Shown here in pieces: positions 6,294-21,548 of a stretch of 64,000 nt of DNA (position 1 is its first letter; each line of letters opens with the position of its first letter). The DNA is from Nocardioidaceae bacterium (GTDB lineage Bacteria > Actinomycetota > Actinomycetes > Propionibacteriales > Nocardioidaceae): contig CP076053.1 in assembly GCA_018672315.1 (NCBI GenBank), positions 1,475,827 through 1,539,826 of the forward strand. The letters run 5' to 3'. The translations under genes were made by a program, and so were the position numbers. Under the pieces are notes generated by a model. It saw nothing but the letters and a program-made list of their open reading frames with translations, ran no database searches and was not told the origin of the DNA.

Positions 6294-7070
6294 TCAGACC
6301 GCGGGGTCCGGCCGGCCGTGTCGACCGGCGCCCGCGGCGAACCGGCCTGCTCCCGCCTGCGCCTCGGCGAGCGAGACCCGGCCGTGCCGCAGCTCGACGG
6401 CGAGCGCCTCGCCCTCGGGGAGCCCCGCGGTCTCGAGCACGCTGAGCCGGTCGCGGCGCAGGCAGGTCTGCGGCAGGCCGGCGAGCTCGTGGGCGAGGGC
6501 CTCGGCGGCCTCGCGCGTACGCCCCGGCTCGACGACGCGGTTCACCAGCCCGATGCGCTCGGCCTCGTCCGCGTCGACGGCCCGCCCGGTGAGGATGAGG
6601 TCCATCGCGCGGCTCTCGCCGATCAGCCGGGGGAGTCGTACGGTGCCGCCGTCGATGAGCGGCACGCCCCAGCGACGGCAGAAGACGCCCAGCACCGCGT
6701 CGGAGGCGGCGACGCGCAGGTCGCACCAGGCGGCGAGCTCGAGGCCGCCCGCGACGGCGTACCCCTCGATGGCTGCGATGACGGGCTTGCCGAGCTGCAT
6801 GCGGCTCGGTCCCATCGGACCGTCGGCGGGCAGGTCGTCCACCCGGTTGCTGCGGTCGGTGCCGATGCCCTTGAGGTCGGCGCCGGCGCAGAACGTGCCG
6901 CCGTCACCCCACAGCACCGCGACGTGCTGCTCTGGGTCGGCGTCGAACGCACGGAAGGCGTCGGCCAGGGCAGCAGCCGTGGGCCCGTCGACGGCGTTGC
7001 GGGCCTCGGGACGGTGCAGGACGACCGTGGTCACGGGGCCGTCGCGCTCGACGCGTACGGGTGAGCTCAC
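6294..7070 (-). CDS. Enoyl-CoA hydratase/isomerase (crotonase) family protein
   Basis: A 258-residue crotonase-fold protein. VTTVVLHRPEARNAVD is the typical first strand and GGTFCAGADLKGIG the oxyanion-hole region; MQLGKPVIAAIEGYAVAGGLELAAWCDLRVA is the second CoA-binding/oxyanion segment. The second catalytic glutamate position is not obvious (the equivalent stretch is CRRWGVPLIDGGTVRLPRLIG), so the reaction may differ from hydration. The GTG start at 7070 overlaps the stop of the FemAB gene as GTGA, indicating translational coupling. Its placement between two cell-wall genes is odd for a lipid-degradation enzyme. Confidence 0.9.
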   Translation of the reverse strand: MSSPVRVERDGPVTTVVLHRPEARNAVDGPTAAALADAFRAFDADPEQHVAVLWGDGGTFCAGADLKGIGTDRSNRVDDLPADGPMGPSRMQLGKPVIAAIEGYAVAGGLELAAWCDLRVAASDAVLGVFCRRWGVPLIDGGTVRLPRLIGESRAMDLILTGRAVDADEAERIGLVNRVVEPGRTREAAEALAHELAGLPQTCLRRDRLSVLETAGLPEGEALAVELRHGRVSLAEAQAGAGRFAAGAGRHGRPDPAV

Positions 7071-8263
7071 CGGCGGCTCATGTAGAGCTCGAACGCCTTG
7101 TACGTCAGTGTCCGCAACGGCAGGTCCCACTCGCCGACGTACTCCACGGCCTGGCCTCCCGTGCCGACCTTGAAGCGGATGAGCCCGATCTCGGCGTCCT
7201 CCGCGTCGACGGTGTCGGTGATGCCGCGCAGGTCGTACACGTCGCAGCCGAGCGCGAGGGAGTCGCGCATCATCTGCCACTGCACCGCGTTGGAGGCCTG
7301 CACCTCCCGACGGACCGTCGAGGAGGCGCCGTAGGAGTACCAGGCGTGCGTCCCCACCGAGATCCAGATCGTCGCGGCGAGCAGGTCGCCCTCGTGGTGG
7401 GCGAGGTAGAGGCGGATCCGGTCCGGGTCCTCGGCGCCGAGCGCGGTGACCATCGTGTCGAAGTACGAGGCCGGTCGCGGAGTGAAGCCGTCGCGCTGCG
7501 CGGTCTCGACGTAGAGGGCGTGGAAGGCGGCGAGGTCGCCGTCAGTGGGGTCGAGGGACCCCTGGGTGACGCGTACGCCGGCCTTGTCGGCCTTGCGGAT
7601 GTTGCGGCGCCACTGCTGGTTCATGCGGGCGAGGGCTTCGTCCTCGGTGAGCGGCTCGCCGTCGGGCAGGTCGTGGCGCAGAGGCACGTGGAAGTTGAAG
7701 CGCGGCTGGCCCGCGCTGAACCCCTCGCCGAGCCCCTGCTCGACCCAGCCGGCGTCGCGCAGCTGTCCGACGACCGCGGCGCCGACCTGGTAGCGGCCGG
7801 TCGGCGGCAGGTCCGTCAGGGCCGTGGCGGACTCGTCCTTGATGCCGTCCTTGATGGCCTCGTCGTCCCACCGGCGGTGGACGACGGGGGCGCCGATGCG
7901 TACGCCGAAGGCACCCTTCTTCTTCACGTGGTCGCTCATCGGGCCGAGCCAGGACACGAGGTCGTCGCTCGCCCAGTCGATGACGGGTCCCTCGGGGAGG
8001 TAGGCGAGGTAGCGCTTCACCTTCGGCAGCTGCCGGTAGAGCACCAGCCCGACCCCGACGAGCTCGTCGTCGGCCTCGGTGGCGCCGTGGGTGAACCAGC
8101 CGATCGACTCAGCGGCCCACTCGGGCTTCACCGCCGCCCAGGCAGGCGTCTGCAGGAACGAGGCGGACCGGCAGCGGCGCAGGAACTCGGCGTGCTGCTC
8201 GCCGGAGATGGTGCGCACCTGCAGCGAGTGCTTCACGGTGTCCGGTCGTACGGGAATGCTCAC
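7067..8263 (-). CDS. FemAB-type peptidoglycan bridge aminoacyltransferase
   Basis: A 398-residue GNAT-fold protein of the FemX/FemA/MurM group, which transfers an amino acid from aminoacyl-tRNA to the lipid II stem peptide. Recognised from FLQTPAWAAVKPEWAAESIGWF near the N-terminus, RRNIRKADKAGVRV in the middle, and the conserved C-terminal block YSYGASSTVRREVQASNAVQWQM and YDLRGI. It starts the leftward operon with the crotonase and alanine-racemase-like genes. The amino acid added is not inferable from the sequence. Confidence 0.9.
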   Translation of the reverse strand: MSIPVRPDTVKHSLQVRTISGEQHAEFLRRCRSASFLQTPAWAAVKPEWAAESIGWFTHGATEADDELVGVGLVLYRQLPKVKRYLAYLPEGPVIDWASDDLVSWLGPMSDHVKKKGAFGVRIGAPVVHRRWDDEAIKDGIKDESATALTDLPPTGRYQVGAAVVGQLRDAGWVEQGLGEGFSAGQPRFNFHVPLRHDLPDGEPLTEDEALARMNQQWRRNIRKADKAGVRVTQGSLDPTDGDLAAFHALYVETAQRDGFTPRPASYFDTMVTALGAEDPDRIRLYLAHHEGDLLAATIWISVGTHAWYSYGASSTVRREVQASNAVQWQMMRDSLALGCDVYDLRGITDTVDAEDAEIGLIRFKVGTGGQAVEYVGEWDLPLRTLTYKAFELYMSRR

Positions 8264-15247: not shown

Positions 15248-16657
15248 GTGAGCGTGGTCAGGCACGAGGCCGGGGTCGACGACGAGGCCGATGCCGAGGC
15301 CATGCGGTGGCTGGCCGAGTCCGACGGGCGCGGCAGCCAGGTGGGGCGTACGCCGCCGCAGGACCTCGACGCCGAGCGGTCGGTGCTCGGCGCGATGATG
15401 CTGAGCAAGGACGCGATCGCCGACTGCATCGAGACGCTGCGGGGCGCAGACTTCTACCGCCCCGCCCACGAGGCGATCTTCGACGCCGTCGTCGACCTCT
15501 ACGGGGGCAACGAGCCCGCCGACCCGATCACGGTCGCGGCCACCTTGACCCGCAAGGGCGAGCTGGCGCGGGTGGGCGGCGCGCCGTACCTGCACACCTT
15601 GACCGCGGCGGTGCCCATGGCCGCGTACGCCGCGCACTACGCCGAGATCGTCCGCGAGAAGGCGATCCTGCGGCGGCTGGTCGAGGCGGGGACGCGGATC
15701 GTGCAGATGGGCTACGCCGGCGAGGGCCAGGTCGACGACGTCGTCGACACCGCCCAGGCCGAGGTCTACCAGGTCACCGAGAAGCGGGCGAGCGAGGACT
15801 ACGCCCGGCTCTCGGAGATCATGGAGGGCGCCCTGGAGGAGATCGAGACGATCTCCAACCGCAACGGGGAGATGGTCGGGGTGCCCACCGGCTTCGCCGA
15901 CCTCGACGACCTGACCAACGGTCTCCACCCGGGCCAGATGATCGTCATCGCCGCCCGTCCCGCGATGGGCAAGTCGACCCTCGGCCTCGACTTCTGCCGC
16001 GCGGCCTCGATCCACCACAACCGCACCTCGGCGATCTTCAGCCTGGAGATGACGCGCAACGAGATCATGATGCGTCTGCTCTCGGCCGAGGCCCGCATCC
16101 CGCTCAACCACCTGCGCAACGGCAACATGACCGACGACGACTGGGCGCGCCTGGCGCGCAAGATGGGCGAGGTCAACGACGCCCCGATGTTCATCGACGA
16201 CTCCCCGAACCTGACCATGATGGAGATCCGGGCCAAGGCCCGCCGGCTCAAGCAGAAGCACGACCTGCAGCTCGTCGTCATCGACTACCTGCAGCTGATG
16301 AGCTCCGGCAAGAAGGTCGAGTCGCGGCAGCTGGAGGTCTCGGAGTTCTCCCGGCAGATCAAGCTGCTCGCCAAGGAGCTCGAGATCCCCGTCATCGCCC
16401 TGAGCCAGCTCAACCGTGGCCCCGAGCAGCGCTCCGACAAGCGCCCCATGGTCTCCGACCTGCGCGAGTCCGGCTCGATCGAGCAGGACGCCGACATGGT
16501 CATCCTGCTGCACCGCGAGGACGCGTACGACAAGGAGTCCAGCCGCCTCGGCGAGGCCGACCTCATCGTGGCGAAGCACCGCAACGGCCCGACCCGCGAC
16601 GTGACCGTCAGCTTCCAGGGCCACTACTCCCGCTTCGTCGACATGGCCCACGGCTGA
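15248..16657 (+). CDS. dnaB: Replicative DNA helicase
   Basis: A 469-residue hexameric helicase that unwinds DNA at the fork. The N-terminal domain (about 35-135, PPQDLDAERSVLGAMMLSKDAIADC) binds primase; the RecA-like domain carries Walker A ARPAMGKST, Walker B LVVIDYLQLM and the DnaB signature SQLNRGPEQR followed by DLRESGSIEQDAD. The protein is continuous, with no intein insertion at the usual Walker A site. Start is GTG after GGGAGAGGGG. The accessory segment begins within about ten bases of the stop codon. Confidence 0.97.
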   Translation: MSVVRHEAGVDDEADAEAMRWLAESDGRGSQVGRTPPQDLDAERSVLGAMMLSKDAIADCIETLRGADFYRPAHEAIFDAVVDLYGGNEPADPITVAATLTRKGELARVGGAPYLHTLTAAVPMAAYAAHYAEIVREKAILRRLVEAGTRIVQMGYAGEGQVDDVVDTAQAEVYQVTEKRASEDYARLSEIMEGALEEIETISNRNGEMVGVPTGFADLDDLTNGLHPGQMIVIAARPAMGKSTLGLDFCRAASIHHNRTSAIFSLEMTRNEIMMRLLSAEARIPLNHLRNGNMTDDDWARLARKMGEVNDAPMFIDDSPNLTMMEIRAKARRLKQKHDLQLVVIDYLQLMSSGKKVESRQLEVSEFSRQIKLLAKELEIPVIALSQLNRGPEQRSDKRPMVSDLRESGSIEQDADMVILLHREDAYDKESSRLGEADLIVAKHRNGPTRDVTVSFQGHYSRFVDMAHG

Positions 16658-16671
16658 GGCGCGACATCTAG

Positions 16672-16746
16672 ATGTCAGTGGAACGACGCCAGATGTCAGC
16701 GGACGGCGACACCGAAATGTCAGTGGAACGACAGATCGTGTCAGTG
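16672..16746 (+). repeat. Left-end repeats of the island
   Basis: ATGTCAGTGGAACGAC occurs twice exactly (16672-16687 and 16717-16732). Shorter copies TGTCAGCGGA (16694) and TGTCAGTG (16739-16746) lie in the same orientation. The outermost copy is part of a 14-bp palindrome GACATCTAGATGTC (16663-16676). Spacing and same-sense orientation suit multiple transposase-binding sites. Confidence 0.7.
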
Positions 16747-16877
16747 CCTGTTGTGGAGCAACGACATGAGACGTCAGCGCTGTCATCGTCTGTCGTTCAT
16801 CCACAGGGTGTCCGAGGAGCCAGGGACACGGCGTCACGAAGCCAGTGCTGGCAGGTCACCAAGTCGAGGACTCATTG

Positions 16878-17210
16878 ATGAGCGAAGCCGGTTATCACCG
16901 TGGACGTCACTTCACTGAATGGGTTGAAGAGGTGAAGACTTTGAGGCGGTCAGGACGAAACGAGGACGCCCTGCTCCTTCTAACGCACCTCATGGACGCC
17001 ACCGAAGCAGAGGCCGCGCACCAAGGAAAGCAGTGGGGTGTCGCTCCCTCGTACTACGAGCAGGCCGCCATCATCTACCGCAAGAACGGCGACCTGGACG
17101 CTGAAGTGGCAGTTCTCGAACGCTTCGCTGCCCAACCGCACGCTCCTGGATCTAAGCCTCCGCAACTTTCTCAACGCCTGAGCAGGGCGAAGGCGCTTCG
17201 AAGCCGCTGA
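16878..17210 (+). CDS. Small TPR-like hypothetical protein
   Basis: A 110-residue helical protein. FTEWVEEVKTLRRSGRNEDALLLLTHLMDATEAEA followed by APSYYEQAAIIYRKNGDLDAEVAVLERFAA has the spacing of two tetratricopeptide-type helical hairpins, suggesting protein-protein interaction. The start at MSEAGYHRG is preferred over one 11 codons upstream. It is the first gene of the island and ends 73 bases before the DUF6338 gene. No enzymatic motif is seen. Confidence 0.6.
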   Translation: MSEAGYHRGRHFTEWVEEVKTLRRSGRNEDALLLLTHLMDATEAEAAHQGKQWGVAPSYYEQAAIIYRKNGDLDAEVAVLERFAAQPHAPGSKPPQLSQRLSRAKALRSR

Positions 17211-17283
17211 ACGCATCCGATACGAGTAAACCGGTGGCGCTCGGCCGGAGTGACAGCAAGCCGAGACCAGCGAGGAGTAGGCG

Positions 17284-17961
17284 ATGGCACCTCAGTCCGT
17301 ACCTCAACTGCTGCTGTTCCTCACGTTCGTGGTGCCCGGCTTCGTCTATCAGTCGGTCCGAATCTCTGTTCGCGGGCGACTGCCGCTTGACGTTGAACTC
17401 TCCGCCCGCATCGTCAGAGCGGTCGTCGCGTCCGCCATATTCGGTCTGGTCTACGTCGCCATCCTGGGGCGGCATCTCGTCGACGCCGTTGAGGGGCGCG
17501 GGTTCGTCCTGGCGCATCCGCGTCTGGCTGCCCTTCTCGCGCTCGCCGGAGGGATCGTGATCCCCTCTGTCGTGGCTCTCGTGCGTCTACCGGAGTGGGA
17601 TTGGGTGACCCGACTGCGCGAATGGGCGCAAGAGCGACTGCCGGAATTCGTCACCTACGACGTCACACCGACGGCATGGGACAAGACATTCCAGTCCTCA
17701 GGTGAATGCTTCATCCGGGTATTGAACCGCGAGGGCAGATGGGCGGGCGGTTACTACGGCGCCAACTCGTACGCCACCTCCTTCCCGGAGCCCCAGCAAC
17801 TGTTCCTCGAACGTGCCTACGTGGTGTCTGAGGACGGGACATTCGAAGGAGAGGTTCCAGGCTCAGCCGGAGTACTGCTCGACTGCTCGGACCTACAGTT
17901 GCTGCAAGTCCTCCGACCCGACGAGGACGGCGCAGCCGAACAGGTAGGTGAGAAGGGATGA
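17284..17961 (+). CDS. DUF6338-like membrane-anchored protein
   Basis: A 225-residue protein: N-terminal membrane region with a helix at about 5-27 (VPQLLLFLTFVVPGFVYQSVRISVRG), one at about 44-63 and one at about 80-98, followed by a cytoplasmic domain. That domain has PTAWDKTFQSSGECFIRVLNREGRWAGGYYG and SYATSFPEPQQLFLERAYVV, which I recognise as the DUF6338 pattern. Function is unknown; such proteins occur in variable regions. AGGAG precedes the ATG. The stop overlaps the next gene start as ATGA. Confidence 0.65.
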   Translation: MAPQSVPQLLLFLTFVVPGFVYQSVRISVRGRLPLDVELSARIVRAVVASAIFGLVYVAILGRHLVDAVEGRGFVLAHPRLAALLALAGGIVIPSVVALVRLPEWDWVTRLREWAQERLPEFVTYDVTPTAWDKTFQSSGECFIRVLNREGRWAGGYYGANSYATSFPEPQQLFLERAYVVSEDGTFEGEVPGSAGVLLDCSDLQLLQVLRPDEDGAAEQVGEKG

Positions 17962-18161
17962 CGAAGTGGCTCCCCCCCGCTGGCGGCGGCTACTCCGGTG
18001 GGTCTACGTCGGCTGCCAAGGCCCCGAAGTCTTCGTCCAAGAAGGGAAGGTCGGCCGCGACTGGGGGGTCCAAGGTGTCCAAATCGAACCGGTCAGCGAA
18101 GACTGGCCGGTACGTCAAGAACCCTCCTAAAGGATCAGCAGGAGTTAGCCGTGCCAAATGA
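17958..18161 (+). CDS. Small basic protein with RSA-x-TGRYVK motif
   Basis: A 67-residue Lys/Ser/Gly-rich protein, translationally coupled (ATGA) to the DUF6338 gene. Its C-terminal half KSNRSAKTGRYVKNPPKG closely resembles GRSAVSGRFVKQSTVKRSP in the small protein encoded at 18457. The composition suggests a disordered or nucleic-acid-binding peptide. Function unknown. Confidence 0.5.
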   Translation: MTKWLPPAGGGYSGGSTSAAKAPKSSSKKGRSAATGGSKVSKSNRSAKTGRYVKNPPKGSAGVSRAK

Positions 18162-18336
18162 AAAGACCCCAAAGGGGCAGGAGCCCACCAAGCCGGGTCG
18201 GAAGTCAACTCCGTTCTCCGATTCGACGAAGAAGGGCGGTCAACGCGGTTGGAAACCCCCCGCCGGTGCCCGCCCCCCGGAGTCGGTGAAGCCGCCGTCC
18301 GGATCTGCGGGCACCTCATCTTCTGACGATGACTGA
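18151..18336 (+). CDS. Small hydrophilic hypothetical protein
   Basis: A 61-residue frame from a GTG at 18151 with AGGAG at good spacing, overlapping the previous gene by 11 bases. The product is Lys/Pro/Ser-rich (TPKGQEPTKPGRKSTPFSD) and ends in an acidic SSSDDD tail. Its placement in a tight series with the DUF6338 and small basic genes supports it being real. Not recognised. Confidence 0.45.
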   Translation: MPNEKTPKGQEPTKPGRKSTPFSDSTKKGGQRGWKPPAGARPPESVKPPSGSAGTSSSDDD

Positions 18337-18456
18337 GTGCGGGCCCTCTTGAAATCCAGGGCGCTGTCTCTGGGACCGCAGAACTGTCGGTGGTCCGCTG
18401 CACCCTTGAATCGGATGAGGGGCCAGCAGAGCCCCTCCGACACCAGGGAGGGCCCC

Positions 18457-18594
18457 ATGGCCAGCAGCAAATCCAGCAGCGGCGGCGGCAAGCGCGGGCG
18501 GAGCGCCGTGTCCGGTCGGTTCGTGAAGCAGTCCACGGTCAAGCGCAGCCCAAAGACCACGGTCAACGAGTCGGTGAAGAAGCCGAAGAAGTAG
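18457..18594 (+). CDS. Small basic protein, paralogue of the 17958 product
   Basis: A 45-residue protein, MASSKSSSGGGKRGRSAVSGRFVKQ and onward, preceded by GGGAGG. The RSA-V/K-S/T-GR-F/Y-VK core is shared with the protein at 17958. Sequences of this style (R-S-A-x-S/T-G-R-F/Y-V followed by TVxRxPxTTV) recur as short orphan proteins in actinobacterial accessory regions. Very basic; a DNA-binding or antitoxin-like role is conceivable but unproven. Confidence 0.55.
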   Translation: MASSKSSSGGGKRGRSAVSGRFVKQSTVKRSPKTTVNESVKKPKK

Positions 18595-18678
18595 CCAGTC
18601 GTTGACGACCGCCAGTCCGTGGTGGCCGTGGCTCTCAGAGCATCGGTCAGCCATAACGGGCCAGGTCGGGTGCGGGCG

Positions 18679-19062
18679 ATGCCAGACATGACCTCGCATC
18701 CGACCGGCCGCGAGTTCCTCAAGAAGGCACTCGAAGTCGCCAAGACTGCTGTGGTCGCCGAGAAAATGGAAGCCGACGGCACCCTCGACGACAACGGCGG
18801 TCATCTGCTCAACCCGCACGTCGGCGCGCTCACCCAGATCGTCAACGAGTACAAGCCCGACGGCACCCCCGTCATCGTCGACGACGTCGTCCGAGACATC
18901 GACACCATCGTCCGCCAGGTCCGCTACACCGGCTGGAACGACACCCAGGAAGGCGACCGCACCGTCCGCAAGGAACTGCGTCTCGTTCTCAACAAGTACA
19001 GACTTCCGCCCACCGGTCCGCTGTTCGACAACGCCTACGCCTATATCAGCGAGAACTACTGA
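18679..19062 (+). pseudogene. Truncated type I restriction subunit R (HsdR C-terminus)
   Basis: About 128 residues that match only the last part of HsdR: TGREFLKKALEVAKTAVVAEK, VGALTQIVNEYKPDGTPVIVDDVVRDIDTIV, RYTGWNDTQEGDRTVRKELRLVLNKYRL and LFDNAYAYISENY. In full HsdR (around 1000 residues) this helical tail contacts the methylase complex and follows the nuclease and helicase domains, which are absent here. No hsdM or hsdS is present in the window. The frame opens upstream to 18619 but that part is not HsdR-like. Probably a remnant left by deletion, or a free-standing HsdR tail; the intact stop and clean frame leave the second option open. Confidence 0.72.
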
Positions 19063-19096
19063 TCGCTCCTGCAGGTGGCTTCACCTGCATGTGGCG

Positions 19097-19375
19097 TCAC
19101 GAGGGCGTCGGCCCCAGCGGTCTGACCCCGGCGCGGGACTGCTGATGGGCCTCCGCGCGATCCAAGGCTTCTGAGTAGCCGTCCGCGTCACGACGGAGGC
19201 GAGAGAGAAAGTCCTGCACGGCGAGATCAATCGTCTCCTGATAAGACGTCGTTCCGACGAACGCGGCTGCGACCTGCAGTTCGAATCGGGTCCGTGGCGT
19301 GACCCGGTACCCGATGGGTTCACCCCGGTTCGGGTTCGGCTTCGGGCCGCGTTGCCCGCGTGCCTGCTGGGACAT
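19097..19375 (-). CDS. Putative ribbon-helix-helix-type DNA-binding protein
   Basis: A 92-residue protein. A basic N-terminus (QQARGQRGPKPNPNRGEP) is followed by IGYRVTPRTRFELQVAAAFVGTTSYQETIDLAVQDFLSRLRR, a short strand plus two helices of the size and spacing of CopG/ParD-type ribbon-helix-helix domains. It is divergent from the phosphoribosyltransferase-like gene, with an inverted repeat between them, so autoregulation of the pair is plausible. Family assignment is from pattern only. Confidence 0.45.
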   Translation of the reverse strand: MSQQARGQRGPKPNPNRGEPIGYRVTPRTRFELQVAAAFVGTTSYQETIDLAVQDFLSRLRRDADGYSEALDRAEAHQQSRAGVRPLGPTPS

Positions 19376-19391
19376 GTCAGTGGTCACCCTT

Positions 19392-19412
19392 ACTGTGAAA
19401 CTAAGTAACAGT
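19392..19412. promoter_or_regulatory. Inverted repeat in divergent promoter
   Basis: ACTGT (19392-19396) and ACAGT (19408-19412) form a 5-bp inverted repeat with an 11-base A/T-rich spacer that also contains an overlapping TTACT/AGTAA pair. It lies between the divergent genes starting at 19375 and 19438 and is a candidate operator for the ribbon-helix-helix-like protein. Confidence 0.4.
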
Positions 19413-19437
19413 GTCGCGCGTTGAACAGGAGGCGGCA

Positions 19438-19866
19438 ATGACAGTCACGATTCCAGCCGGTTCACTCATGGAGTCCGCGTTGCTCGGTGCTCACCACGCC
19501 GACGCCCTAACCGACCACGACGTGCTCACGTCGGCGGCGGCCGCGCTTCTCGACGCGGTGGCAAGTGCGGGCGACGTGGCCGTCCGGCCCGTCGGCAGAC
19601 AAGGGGCACTCATCGTGGGTGCCGCATCCGTCATGAGTAAGGGCGCGCTTCAACATGCAGCCCCTGGAACGATGCAGCAACGCCACACCAAGGTCATGGT
19701 CGTCGATGCCGTTGCTGTCGGTCATGGCGTCGTCGAGCGAGCCGTTCGCGAAGTCCGACTGGCGGGGGCCGACTGGGTCGCAGCCTGGGTATGGCGGGCA
19801 TCGCCACGTCTCAACCAGGAAGCCATTGAAGCCGACCACGTGGACGTCAACGGCCTACTTGACTGA
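19438..19866 (+). CDS. Phosphoribosyltransferase-like protein (degenerate PRPP loop)
   Basis: A 142-residue protein with AGGAGG before the ATG. The order of elements fits a type I phosphoribosyltransferase fold: an N-terminal helix (VLTSAAAALLDAVASAG), a strand-loop (DVAVRPVGRQGALIVGAA) and the segment KVMVVDAVAVGHGVVERAVREVRLAGAD. That segment aligns with the usual hVVDDxxxTGxT PRPP loop and following helix. The second acidic residue and the TGxT loop are not conserved here (DAVAVGHG), so it may bind a nucleotide-like ligand without catalysis. Its 3' end overlaps the convergent RuvC-like gene by 12 bases. Confidence 0.4.
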   Translation: MTVTIPAGSLMESALLGAHHADALTDHDVLTSAAAALLDAVASAGDVAVRPVGRQGALIVGAASVMSKGALQHAAPGTMQQRHTKVMVVDAVAVGHGVVERAVREVRLAGADWVAAWVWRASPRLNQEAIEADHVDVNGLLD

Positions 19867-20307
19867 CCGTGCCGCCAACGCCGCAGAGGCGGCGACCTTC
19901 CACTTTGCAGCCGCGATCTTCTTCGCTTGCTCTTCTGCGTCCGCCAGGCCGTTCCCGCACGCCGTCCCGACCTGTGGCCCACTGAACACACGCACATCGC
20001 TGCAGTACTGACGGGCGATGTAGATCGCCGCGCCTTCTGCACGCAATCGCAGCACCGTCGGCCCGGTCAGCCCACCGCGGGCGCCATCATCGCCCTGTCG
20101 GACCACAATTCGCTCGATTGCGCTCAGGGCGCTGAGCCTGCCATCGAGACCGTCAGAGATGGCGATGATCTTTTCGGCTACGTCGTCTGTATCCGGCGCG
20201 AGATAATCGAACGTAGCGACGTTCGTCCCGTCGAGAACTACTCCACGTAGCCGCGGCTTCCCCTGTTCGATCCGAACCGCGATCCCGACATATGCCATGA
20301 CAGGCAC
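19855..20307 (-). CDS. Putative RuvC/RNase H-fold protein
   Basis: A 150-residue protein. AYVGIAVRIEQGKPRLRGVVL, LSAIERIVVRQGDD, GPTVLRLRAEGAAIYIARQYCSDVRVFSGPQVGTACGNG and the C-terminal helix AKWKVAASAALAA follow the order of elements in RuvC-like nucleases. The candidate strand-4 glutamate is present (SAIER), but the first-strand aspartate of GIDxG is replaced (GIAV). It may therefore be an inactive or altered nuclease; the fold call is inference. Start could also be 20298. It is divergent from the kinase gene with only about 6-25 bases between start codons. Confidence 0.4.
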   Translation of the reverse strand: MPVMAYVGIAVRIEQGKPRLRGVVLDGTNVATFDYLAPDTDDVAEKIIAISDGLDGRLSALSAIERIVVRQGDDGARGGLTGPTVLRLRAEGAAIYIARQYCSDVRVFSGPQVGTACGNGLADAEEQAKKIAAAKWKVAASAALAARSVK

Positions 20308-20309
20308 CC

Positions 20310-20315
20310 TAAGAT
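20310..20315 (+). promoter_or_regulatory. -10 element of the kinase gene (leaderless)
   Basis: TAAGAT is a TANNNT -10 hexamer, with 7 bases before the ATG at 20323. This spacing is that of leaderless actinobacterial transcripts and supports 20323 (MLQSRFPT) rather than 20314 as the kinase start. Confidence 0.45.
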
Positions 20316-21390
20316 GTACCCGATGTTACAGTCGCGCTTTCCGACAGTCTCATCAGCGGTGCGCTTCCACGACCGCTACGACCTCATCGCCTACAAAGGT
20401 GGCGGTGCCTTCGGGGAGGTCTGGCTCGCCACCGACACGAATACCGGTCGCGAGATTGCGCTCAAACTTCTCGACCCGGCCTACACCACGCCCGACGACG
20501 CGTGGCGGGAGGCAACAACCTTGACCGGCCTGCGCAGCAAGTACATCGCCCAGGTTCACGGTGCCGCACTTGACGAGTTCGGTATCCCGTACATCGACAT
20601 GCAGTACCTCCCCAGAGGCAGCGTGGCCAAGGCCCTCCCGACACTGGGGACAGCCGAAGCAACAGCAGTCAGGTGGGGGCTGCGCACGGCCCGGGGTCTC
20701 CACCTGTGCCACGAGAGCGGCGTCCTCCACCGAGACGTGAAGCCAGACAACCTCCTGCTCTCTGCAACCGGAGACGTACTACTAGGTGACTTCGGGGTCG
20801 CCGCCAAGATGGCGACCGATGGCACGGCCGATCCCCACGGCGACTGCGACATCCGAGCACCAGAAACGTTCACCACCCGTTGCTCAGTGCAATCAGACGT
20901 GTACTCGCTCGGCGTCACCCTCTACGCCATGATCACCGGGCAACTACCTCACACCCTCGCGGGGAACGGGCACGACATAAGCGCCCTGGAGCACGCCGTG
21001 TCACAAGGGGTCCCCGACCCCAGAGATGAGGCCCCGCACATCACCCTCGGCCTTGCACGGGTGATCTCCACAGCCACTGCAGTCAACCCTGCCGACCGCT
21101 TTGCCACCGCGAACGATCTCGACAGCGCGCTCTCCAAACTGGCGACACCCAGCCGTGTCATCACGCGAGTGTCTCCGTGCGCGACGAGCGGCCGCTGCTG
21201 GGACGCCGTGCATCCCGCAGCAGCCAAGGGCAAGTCCATCCACGTCTGTGCCTCACCCGCTGCCGCGGCTCACCGCACTCGGATCGAGACGCGGTACCGG
21301 GGAGGGAACCGCATCACCGCCCACTGCGACGAGGTCACCAACTCGAAAGCCACAACCCGATTGAAGGCCGTTTTCCGTGCCCTCCTTTGA
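20314..21390 (+). CDS. Ser/Thr protein kinase with Cys/His-rich C-terminal tail
   Basis: A 358-residue Hanks-type kinase counted from 20314 (a start at 20323 is equally possible). All catalytic elements are present: glycine loop KGGGAFGEV (28-36), ATP lysine Lys51, HRDVKPDN (139-146) with Asp141, DFG (159-161) and APE (182-184). There is no transmembrane helix and no PASTA domain, unlike PknB-type housekeeping kinases. After the kinase domain (about residue 280) a tail of about 78 residues carries Cys289, Cys295, His300, His310, Cys312, His320, His337 and Cys338, suggesting a metal-binding or sensing module. It lies at the right end of the island, divergent from the RuvC-like gene. Confidence 0.88.
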   Translation: MYPMLQSRFPTVSSAVRFHDRYDLIAYKGGGAFGEVWLATDTNTGREIALKLLDPAYTTPDDAWREATTLTGLRSKYIAQVHGAALDEFGIPYIDMQYLPRGSVAKALPTLGTAEATAVRWGLRTARGLHLCHESGVLHRDVKPDNLLLSATGDVLLGDFGVAAKMATDGTADPHGDCDIRAPETFTTRCSVQSDVYSLGVTLYAMITGQLPHTLAGNGHDISALEHAVSQGVPDPRDEAPHITLGLARVISTATAVNPADRFATANDLDSALSKLATPSRVITRVSPCATSGRCWDAVHPAAAKGKSIHVCASPAAAAHRTRIETRYRGGNRITAHCDEVTNSKATTRLKAVFRALL

Positions 21391-21548
21391 CTTGCCGTCG
21401 CCGTAGCGGACGTACCGGGGGAGCGGCCGTCCTGACCGCGACCGCGACTGTTTCAACGGATAAGTCGGGCGGAAGTCGTCGGGCGAGCCTGTGGACAGAC
21501 GACATCCGCTGTCAGTGCTGACAGGCGGCGTCGCGCCTACTGACATCT
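21391..21548. repeat. Right end of the island with inverted TGTCAG repeats
   Basis: No gene is seen in the 280 bases after the kinase. Its distal part holds the right-end repeats: ACTGACATCT at 21539-21548 (inverted relative to the left end), a CTGTCAG-TG-CTGACAG palindrome at 21509-21524, and GGACAGACGACATCCG just inside. Beyond 21550 the sequence returns to backbone-like composition before the acidic-protein gene. Confidence 0.6.

Follow-up and report, generated by a model that had tools for sequence, protein, structure and literature searches.

Only a few examples of phage defence by kinases have been described, and for most of them the trigger is not known. Defence kinases of the PD-T4-6/Stk2 type are single stand-alone genes. 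Kinases are also found at the centre of small modules. According to PMC11341870, KKP (kinase-kinase-phosphatase) of Pf prophages, a compact mobile-element module built around kinases, takes part in both the control of lysogeny and defence, and PMC13092281 describes HipAB-like kinase toxin–antitoxin systems, and DS-6 of DefensePredictor, as a kinase with a partner that may bind DNA and repress. The locus considered here lies in a 64,000-nucleotide stretch of a Nocardioidaceae bacterium genome (GenBank assembly GCA_018672315.1, contig CP076053.1, positions 1,475,827 to 1,539,826 of the forward strand), referred to as the window. It combines a soluble Ser/Thr kinase (K) with a protein of predicted RuvC fold (R), a protein of predicted phosphoribosyltransferase (PRTase) fold (P) and a small putative DNA-binding protein of 92 aa. 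That K, R and P constitute a mobile three-gene module, usually with an exchangeable DNA-binding gene beside P, is well supported. That this module serves in conflict, with the kinase gated by two pseudoenzymes, is suggested by the sequences and held tentatively, at a little under an even chance.

The combination of K, R and P has no match in Pfam, PADLOC, NCBIfam or PHROGs and was not recognised in the open-licence literature searched, in agreement with the sequence-only reading, an earlier account of this DNA by a model, which knew of no named system of this composition. The composition is new to these libraries and this literature; its kind, a kinase-centred accessory or conflict module, is already known. 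Like K, PD-T4-6/Stk2 is a soluble Ser/Thr kinase, and PD-T4-6 models are the best PADLOC matches of K. Unlike PD-T4-6/Stk2, K has R and P beside it in 14 of 14 loci, and the cassette kinases make up a clade of their own against 11 other kinases. From MAD6 of the MADS system K differs in falling below the NF047741 cut-off. Compared with KKP as PMC11341870 presents it, no second kinase or phosphatase is seen in the cassette core, which has two pseudoenzymes instead; no kinase or phosphatase family was found by Pfam and NCBIfam among the window neighbours P0002–P0009, the other loci being judged by eye. Compared with HipAB, K matches PF00069 and PF07714 and no HipA family, and the DNA-binding gene of the cassette stands beside P, not beside K.

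The module was traced through R, a strong match being defined by an E value below 1e-8 in at least one search. Thirteen loci were found in this way, two in the window's own genome and one in each of 11 others (G142, G055, G498, G336, G275, G672, G1094, G1181, G1054, G1146 and G1152; G numbers denote genomes and L numbers loci). A 14th, in Aeromicrobium flavum, came from a search with a kinase stretch, its R being recognised by profile. K and P stand beside R in all 14 loci with a strong R match. L025 and L066 are near copies, as are L078 and L079 (99.99% identity over 15.5 kb), which leaves 12 distinct cassettes. The hosts are Nocardioidaceae, Kribbella, a genus including Mycolicibacterium and one more family, the named records being Kribbella rubisoli, Mycolicibacterium sphagni, an uncultured Nocardioides and A. 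flavum. The second cassette of the window's genome (G000:C1:1715581-1718231, or L026:7582-10232) is diverged and carries a helix–turn–helix (HTH) gene between R and P. Among relatives, strong matches came from 3 genomes of 147, two weak ones being set aside; in the class from 5 of 394, a further six genomes, weakly matched, being set aside; in the genus of G498 from 3 of 198; in the phylum from 2 of 346; in Kribbella from 1 of 38; in Nocardioides from 5 of 214, with two weak matches set aside; and in the family of G275 from 1 of 160, with three set aside. The genome sets overlap and only the best candidates of a loose first pass were scored, so that these counts are lower bounds. The system is rare and patchy.

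Several weak candidates were rejected. L027 and L028 proved to be shadow open reading frames (ORFs) with no K or P beside them, and L045–L048, L083 and L084 likewise had no K or P beside them. Around the weak R matches L034–L039, L041 and L072–L076 no R, P or K was found at E 1e-3 within ~1.5 kb on each side, and the weak P matches L009, L010 and L012–L023 had no K or R within ~1.5 kb on each side. No R or P was seen beside plasmid kinases in the eight regions read out of 741 kinase-matching plasmid records. The window R had no match in phages, plasmids or viral contigs, and the window kinase stretch none in viral contigs, in searches that reach near relatives only.

The arrangement of the three genes is conserved together with their sequences. 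R and K are divergent in 12 of 12 distinct cassettes. In the window, L024, L025, L062, L082, L043, L044 and L078, P and R converge, and they overlap in six of these eight; in L026, L042, L080 and L081 an HTH gene separates R from P and is convergent with the former and divergent from the latter. In a maximum-likelihood tree with 11 other actinobacterial kinases, the 12 cassette kinases fall on one side of one branch (support 100/100) and include a group of the window, L024, L062, L025 and L082 (84/89), a group of L042, L080 and L081 (98/97) and a group of L043, L044 and L078 (100/99); the L026 kinase falls between the last two groups, its placement not being resolved by the tree. Gene order follows this tree, with L026 left open. 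K, R and P are strongly correlated in their identity matrices (Mantel r 0.90–0.94; no permutation out of 2000 reached such a value in any of the comparisons), near relatives contributing to the correlation. DNA homology between L044 and L078 (79%) is confined to K-R-P, running from the K stop codon to just past the P start. The ratio of non-synonymous to synonymous substitution rates (dN/dS) for L080/L081 and L044/L078 is 0.12–0.13 for R, 0.17–0.22 for P and 0.12–0.14 for K; for L043/L044 (dS 1.5–1.7) it reaches 0.38 in R and 0.32 in P. Purifying selection acts on the orthologues, and the ratios of 0.12–0.22 in two pairs from other genomes indicate that K, R and P are real genes. For the partner genes beside P, dN/dS is 0.14 (L080/L081) and 0.13 (L024/L062) at dS above 2, other pairs being saturated.

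The catalytic domain of K covers approximately residues 26–259 (PF00069, E 8.8e-34; PF07714 is also matched) and is followed by a C-terminal region of ~75 aa common to the family, with two cysteines in most members. Residues K48, E63, H136, D138, K140, N143 and D156 are invariant in 12 of 12 members, in keeping with the intact soluble kinase of the sequence-only reading. To judge from these residues, the active site is intact and K is apparently a working protein kinase. Among PADLOC models 33 match K, the best being PD-T4-6 (8.6e-47) and MAD6 (5.2e-45), and K is far below the NCBIfam cut-offs for PknB and MAD6 (118 bits against the 460 bits of NF047741).

For R, the AlphaFold2 model built from five sequences has a mean predicted local distance difference test score (pLDDT) of 93.1 and a predicted template-modelling score (pTM) of 0.88. 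Superposition on Deinococcus radiodurans RuvC with VIA-align gives Z 16.2 and a root-mean-square deviation (rmsd) of 2.7 Å over 139 residues, and in a Foldseek search with the model (E 4.8e-6) the top 15 rows are all RuvC or chloroplast RuvC-type resolvases; the first non-resolvase rows are bridge-RNA recombinases such as IS621, with Z at most 11.8. A sequence-only search of the PDB with R gave 0 matches at E up to 10, the window R matches 0 Pfam families at E up to 1, the Pfam RuvC family (PF02075) is matched by 2 of 12 members with a best E of 0.0052, and hhalign aligns R with the RuvC of its own genome over 67 columns at 12% probability; the RuvC assignment therefore rests on predicted structure. 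The model shows a RuvC/RNase H-like fold across the whole protein.

When R is aligned with the genome's own RuvC, the RuvC sequence frame is kept, with GI-x for GID and, as vestiges, PDRVAIRRAD in L080 for PDVVAVERMF and GNG-LADAE in the window R for GNGRADKK. The four RuvC acids (Asp, Glu, Asp, Asp) occur together in 0 of 12 members and the window copy has 0 of 4, in columns taken from a loose alignment (hhalign probability 12%), so that single columns are uncertain. R is thus like the RuvC Holliday junction resolvase in whole-protein fold and unlike it in the active-site acids, no member having all four. Among the residues invariant in the family are R84, E88 and G89, on a helix that in RuvC is part of the dimer interface. 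As an observation in its own right, the R of L080 (L080:9453-9923) carries the first RuvC aspartate (FGID), the only one of 12 to do so, and is perhaps closest to an active ancestor.

The P model is weaker (pLDDT 76.3, pTM 0.73, the last 16 residues below 50). Its best structural match is an orotate phosphoribosyltransferase (OPRTase; Z 11.4, rmsd 3.4, 127 aligned residues), and titles of the PRTase family, including PurR, PyrR and UMP/OMP synthase, appear in 46 of 50 realigned rows, the four others being uninformative; Foldseek with the model found no match at E 0.001, the best being at E 0.017. Independently, the sequence profile of P matches enzymes that bind phosphoribosyl pyrophosphate (PRPP), with E 0.0013 and an alignment over the PRPP loop. 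The acidic pair of the PRPP motif is complete in 0 of 12 members. P accordingly resembles type I phosphoribosyltransferases (OPRTase, APRT, PyrR, PurR) in fold and PRPP-loop region and differs from them in that the second acid is absent in 12 of 12 members and the first in 6 of 12. The model and profile show a PRTase-like fold without the PRPP-motif acidic pair. Near the cassette of the uncultured Nocardioides, two ComF-like proteins (L082:3830-4603 and 6421-7233) have canonical PRPP motifs (IIDDTWTGG and LVDDTWTSG) and are possible active relatives of P.

Structure prediction has thus recovered two of the three small-protein folds that the earlier reading had drawn from raw sequence, the RuvC-like and, on the weaker model, the PRTase-like. 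The degenerate active sites of R and P, and a symmetric element in the gap that separates the R and K starts, go beyond that reading.

The gap between the R and K start codons is 22–24 nt in 10 of 12 distinct cassettes, and in these 10 it reads N6-7-AnnnTAnnnT-N6-7, which gives TAnnnT on each strand with the central TA in common. In the window, TAAGAT-N7-ATG precedes K on the plus strand and TAGGGT-N7-ATG precedes R on the minus strand. The sequence-only reading had placed the two start codons at most about 25 bases apart; the distance is 24 nt with the ATG at 20323 and 15 nt with the upstream ATG at 20314, the former start, like that of L025, having been picked with the promoter geometry in view. 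In 11 sequences totalling 254,010 bases, the window and ten loci, the geometry occurs 9 times: the nine sequences that have it at the junction contain it once each, and L026 and L062 do not contain it. Shuffling of the gap reproduces it in 0.03–1.6% of cases. As a consensus match, the element predicts that R and K share one symmetric −10 in 10 of 12 cassettes. With the start codon 6–7 nt from the −10 there is no room for a leader, and both genes would be leaderless. Leaderless genes are common in actinobacteria. PMC10268837 defines bidirectional promoters by divergent starts at a distance of 7–25 bp, most often 18 bp, over a −10 common to both; the symmetric ones (Warman et al. 2021, as cited there) likewise have a −10 read on both strands. 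The predicted starts of the cassette, 23–25 bp apart, are inside this definition, the usual spacing being 18 bp (PMC10268837). The cassette differs from known symmetric promoters in that both genes are predicted to be leaderless and that the arrangement recurs across families.

The predicted shared element would tie the R and K promoters together. The two genes stand side by side at every locus, usually over one promoter element, which suggests that R and K act together. This pairing also bears on a toxin–antitoxin-like addiction module, in which K would be toxic, co-expressed R its direct inhibitor and the host the target. The pairing of the two genes in all 14 loci, their shared predicted element and the two copies in one genome speak for it; the three conserved components, with P apart from the R–K promoter, exceed what an addiction pair needs, and we consider it unlikely. 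Antisense control between P and R through the alternating, partly overlapping transcripts may also occur.

In the window the four ORFs lie on alternating strands (Table 1), all reading frames being confirmed against the ORF list. The 3' overlap of R and P and the neighbouring restriction-enzyme remnant, both put forward in the sequence-only reading, are borne out. The remnant has 44.7% identity to the C terminus of an Arthrobacter plasmid HsdR and is likely what is left of a lost restriction system. Among the window proteins P0001–P0009, only the kinase and the DUF6338 protein pass the Pfam cut-off, and in Pfam, PADLOC, NCBIfam and PHROGs nothing meaningful matches R, P or the 92-aa protein. 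In 1-kb windows from 16000 to 21499 the GC content is 0.62–0.66, against 0.68–0.74 in the flanks, and from GC alone we infer an insertion of the cassette at this site. Two tandem small Lys/Ser-rich proteins (17958-18161 and 18337-18594) share a motif of approximately SAxxGR(F/Y)VK and have no significant family match in the same four libraries.

Table 1. Features of the K-R-P locus and its surroundings, in window coordinates
Feature	Position	Strand	Remarks
K	20323..21390	+	soluble Ser/Thr kinase; alternative start ATG 20314
R	19855..20298	-	RuvC-fold protein (predicted)
P	19438..19866	+	PRTase-fold protein (predicted); AGGAGG 5' of the gene at 19427-19432
92-aa gene	19097..19375	-	small, putative DNA-binding; divergent from P
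R/P overlap	19855..19866		convergent 3' overlap, 12 bp, from ORF coordinates
Symmetric -10-like element ACCCTAAGAT	20306..20315		form AnnnTAnnnT; between R and K starts
Weak inverted repeat ACTGT-N11-ACAGT	19392..19412		between 92-aa gene and P; 5-bp arms, chance possible
HsdR C-terminal remnant	18619..19062	+	type I restriction; adjoins the cassette, not part of it
DUF6338 gene	17284-17961		Pfam match
DnaB-like gene	15248-16657		reading of the ORF; lower-GC block comes just after

The gene beside P varies. The 92-aa protein, putatively of ribbon-helix-helix (RHH) type, has no significant match in library searches, and its gene was not found in the other 11 distinct cassettes. The four-gene cassette of the sequence-only reading has therefore stood in part: K, R and P occur together in all loci, the RHH-like gene in no other cassette. 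A winged-helix-like gene stands beside P in L024, L062, L025 and L082, with weak Pfam matches in L025 and L082 and none in L024 and L062, where it was assigned by reading. The HTH gene of L026, L042, L080 and L081 is of HTH_17 type, over the Pfam cut-off in three and just under it in L026. No recognisable DNA-binding gene stands beside P in L043, L044 and L078. From this varied or absent partner, and from the limits of the L044/L078 homology, the core is K-R-P and the DNA-binding gene an exchangeable accessory.

The operator-like site that had been claimed between the RHH-like and PRTase-like genes is present as an inverted repeat, with arms of only 5 bp; no inverted repeat with arms of at least 6 bp was found there. 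Elsewhere between DNA-binding gene and P, arms of 8–12 bp with one mismatch occur in L024, L062, L082, L042, L080 and L081, from which no claim is drawn; the best inverted repeat of L025 (11 bp) may fall inside the winged-helix gene, and none with long arms was found in this interval in the window or L026. The winged-helix-like gene of L082 matches PF24409 (wHTH-PRTase_assc), a family that points to retrons with a PRTase effector, weakly, at E 0.16 only, and no R, P or K of the cassette kind was found at 17 PF24409 loci within the DNA examined. The sole strong PF24409 match, L086 (G241:C1:8480524), is a retron-like locus with a PRTase-wHTH protein, whose PRTase reads as canonical, and an apparent reverse transcriptase.

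Mobility is best documented in Aeromicrobium, where a 7.2-kb block with the cassette is 99.8% identical in two genomes (L025:3799-10956 and L066:1-7150) and the next stretches common to both, on the right side, are 88–90% identical; the difference indicates recent transfer at the same locus. On the left the block runs to the edge of the DNA examined. A cassette for housekeeping or stress signalling that has nothing to do with mobile elements, in which subunits derived from PRTase and RuvC sense nucleotide pools and DNA damage, would agree with the origin of both folds in nucleotide metabolism and recombination repair. This near-identical block, the lower GC of the window block and the patchy strong matches (at least 1/38 Kribbella, at least 3/198 in the genus of G498 and at least 5/214 Nocardioides) count against such a cassette, which we regard as very improbable.

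Around 11 cassettes, in regions of up to 19 kb, 59 larger ORFs out of 96 were taken as neighbours. Integrase and transposase families are among them, and a truncated integrase-like ORF, identified by reading, lies beside L043. No recombinase common to the loci was seen, and no systematic search for one was made. In L044 PADLOC places a full-length HsdR at 3.5 kb from the cassette, in L078 PDC-M02A/B immediately next to it, in L024 a GmrSD-like HEC-05 protein at 2.3 kb and in L025 SoFic at 6.6 kb; PDC-S60 is matched in part in L026, and the neighbours in L080 include a weak match of type III. Matches to a CBASS-type cyclase and a 2TM effector were not placed at any locus and are unused.

These surroundings bear on another explanation, that K-R-P is not defence but the regulatory switch of an integrated mobile element, controlling its excision, transfer or dormancy in the manner of KKP. 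Its route would be phosphorylation by K of the neighbouring DNA-binding protein, or of R and P, and we rate this route, like the switch itself, as rather unlikely. The HTH_17 type partner genes of four distinct cassettes, three of them over the Pfam cut-off, favour it, as do the integrase and transposase families and the truncated ORF beside L043. The core seems to be independent of a DNA-binding gene, since L043, L044 and L078 have no recognised one and the L044/L078 homology is K-R-P only; this argues against a switch, as does the lack of a recombinase seen in common.

The preferred reading remains a mobile conflict module whose kinase would be gated by two pseudoenzymes. Speaking for it are the constant company and joint divergence of K, R and P, the single kinase clade, the folds and incomplete active sites of R and P, the intact kinase residues, the symmetric −10, the signs of mobility, the defence-type genes near several loci and the best PADLOC matches of K. 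R and P would be sensors or adaptors that hold or guide K, R keeping the RuvC dimer and an affinity for branched DNA and P binding a nucleotide or PRPP-like ligand, with K as the one clear enzyme among the three. Replication of a phage or mobile element would alter the state of R and P and release K, which would phosphorylate host targets and cause growth arrest or block the invader; the product of the DNA-binding gene would repress its own gene and P. In its fullest form the proposal would be an immune or dormancy module of a new kind. RuvC, the Holliday junction resolvase, and a phosphoribosyltransferase, both enzymes of housekeeping, would in it have become non-catalytic sensors, one for branched replication DNA and one for pools of nucleotides or PRPP, and would gate a kinase, DNA sensor and kinase being tied by one symmetric leaderless promoter; this form is doubtful.

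Several observations weigh against the gated-kinase reading. The first RuvC aspartate is kept in one R member (L080); at the RuvC Glu column Glu is found in 0 of 12, with a Glu one residue later in L024, L025, L062 and L082; and of the two Asp columns towards the C terminus, the third position is acidic in 3 of 12 members and the fourth in 8 of 12. In P the first PRPP-motif acid is kept in 6 of 12 members, including the window copy (DA for the acidic pair). With acids partly kept, some R or P members may have residual activity, and loss of acids is no proof of retained ligand binding. At the promoter, only the R side fits in L062 and the element is degraded in L026, as judged by reading. In E. 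coli bidirectional promoters, basal transcription one way barely affects the other direction, whereas strong activation one way can repress the other, and this interference lowers noise (PMC12825309); given these results, a shared −10 need not give joint expression. The PADLOC matches of K, spread over so many models, are generic in nature. No defence match was placed in L042, L043, L062, L081 or L082, 5 of the 11 loci outside the window, and only 30 of the 59 neighbour proteins were also scanned singly; the defence-type genes within 9 kb in several loci are context, not enrichment.

What sets this module apart is that the kinase comes with defined partners. With three of them, two having recognisable ancestral ligands (branched DNA, and PRPP or nucleotides), the trigger of a kinase becomes directly testable. 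The element between R and K would be a symmetric bidirectional promoter that is met again, in different families, between one and the same pair of genes, a case relevant to the persistence of such promoters.

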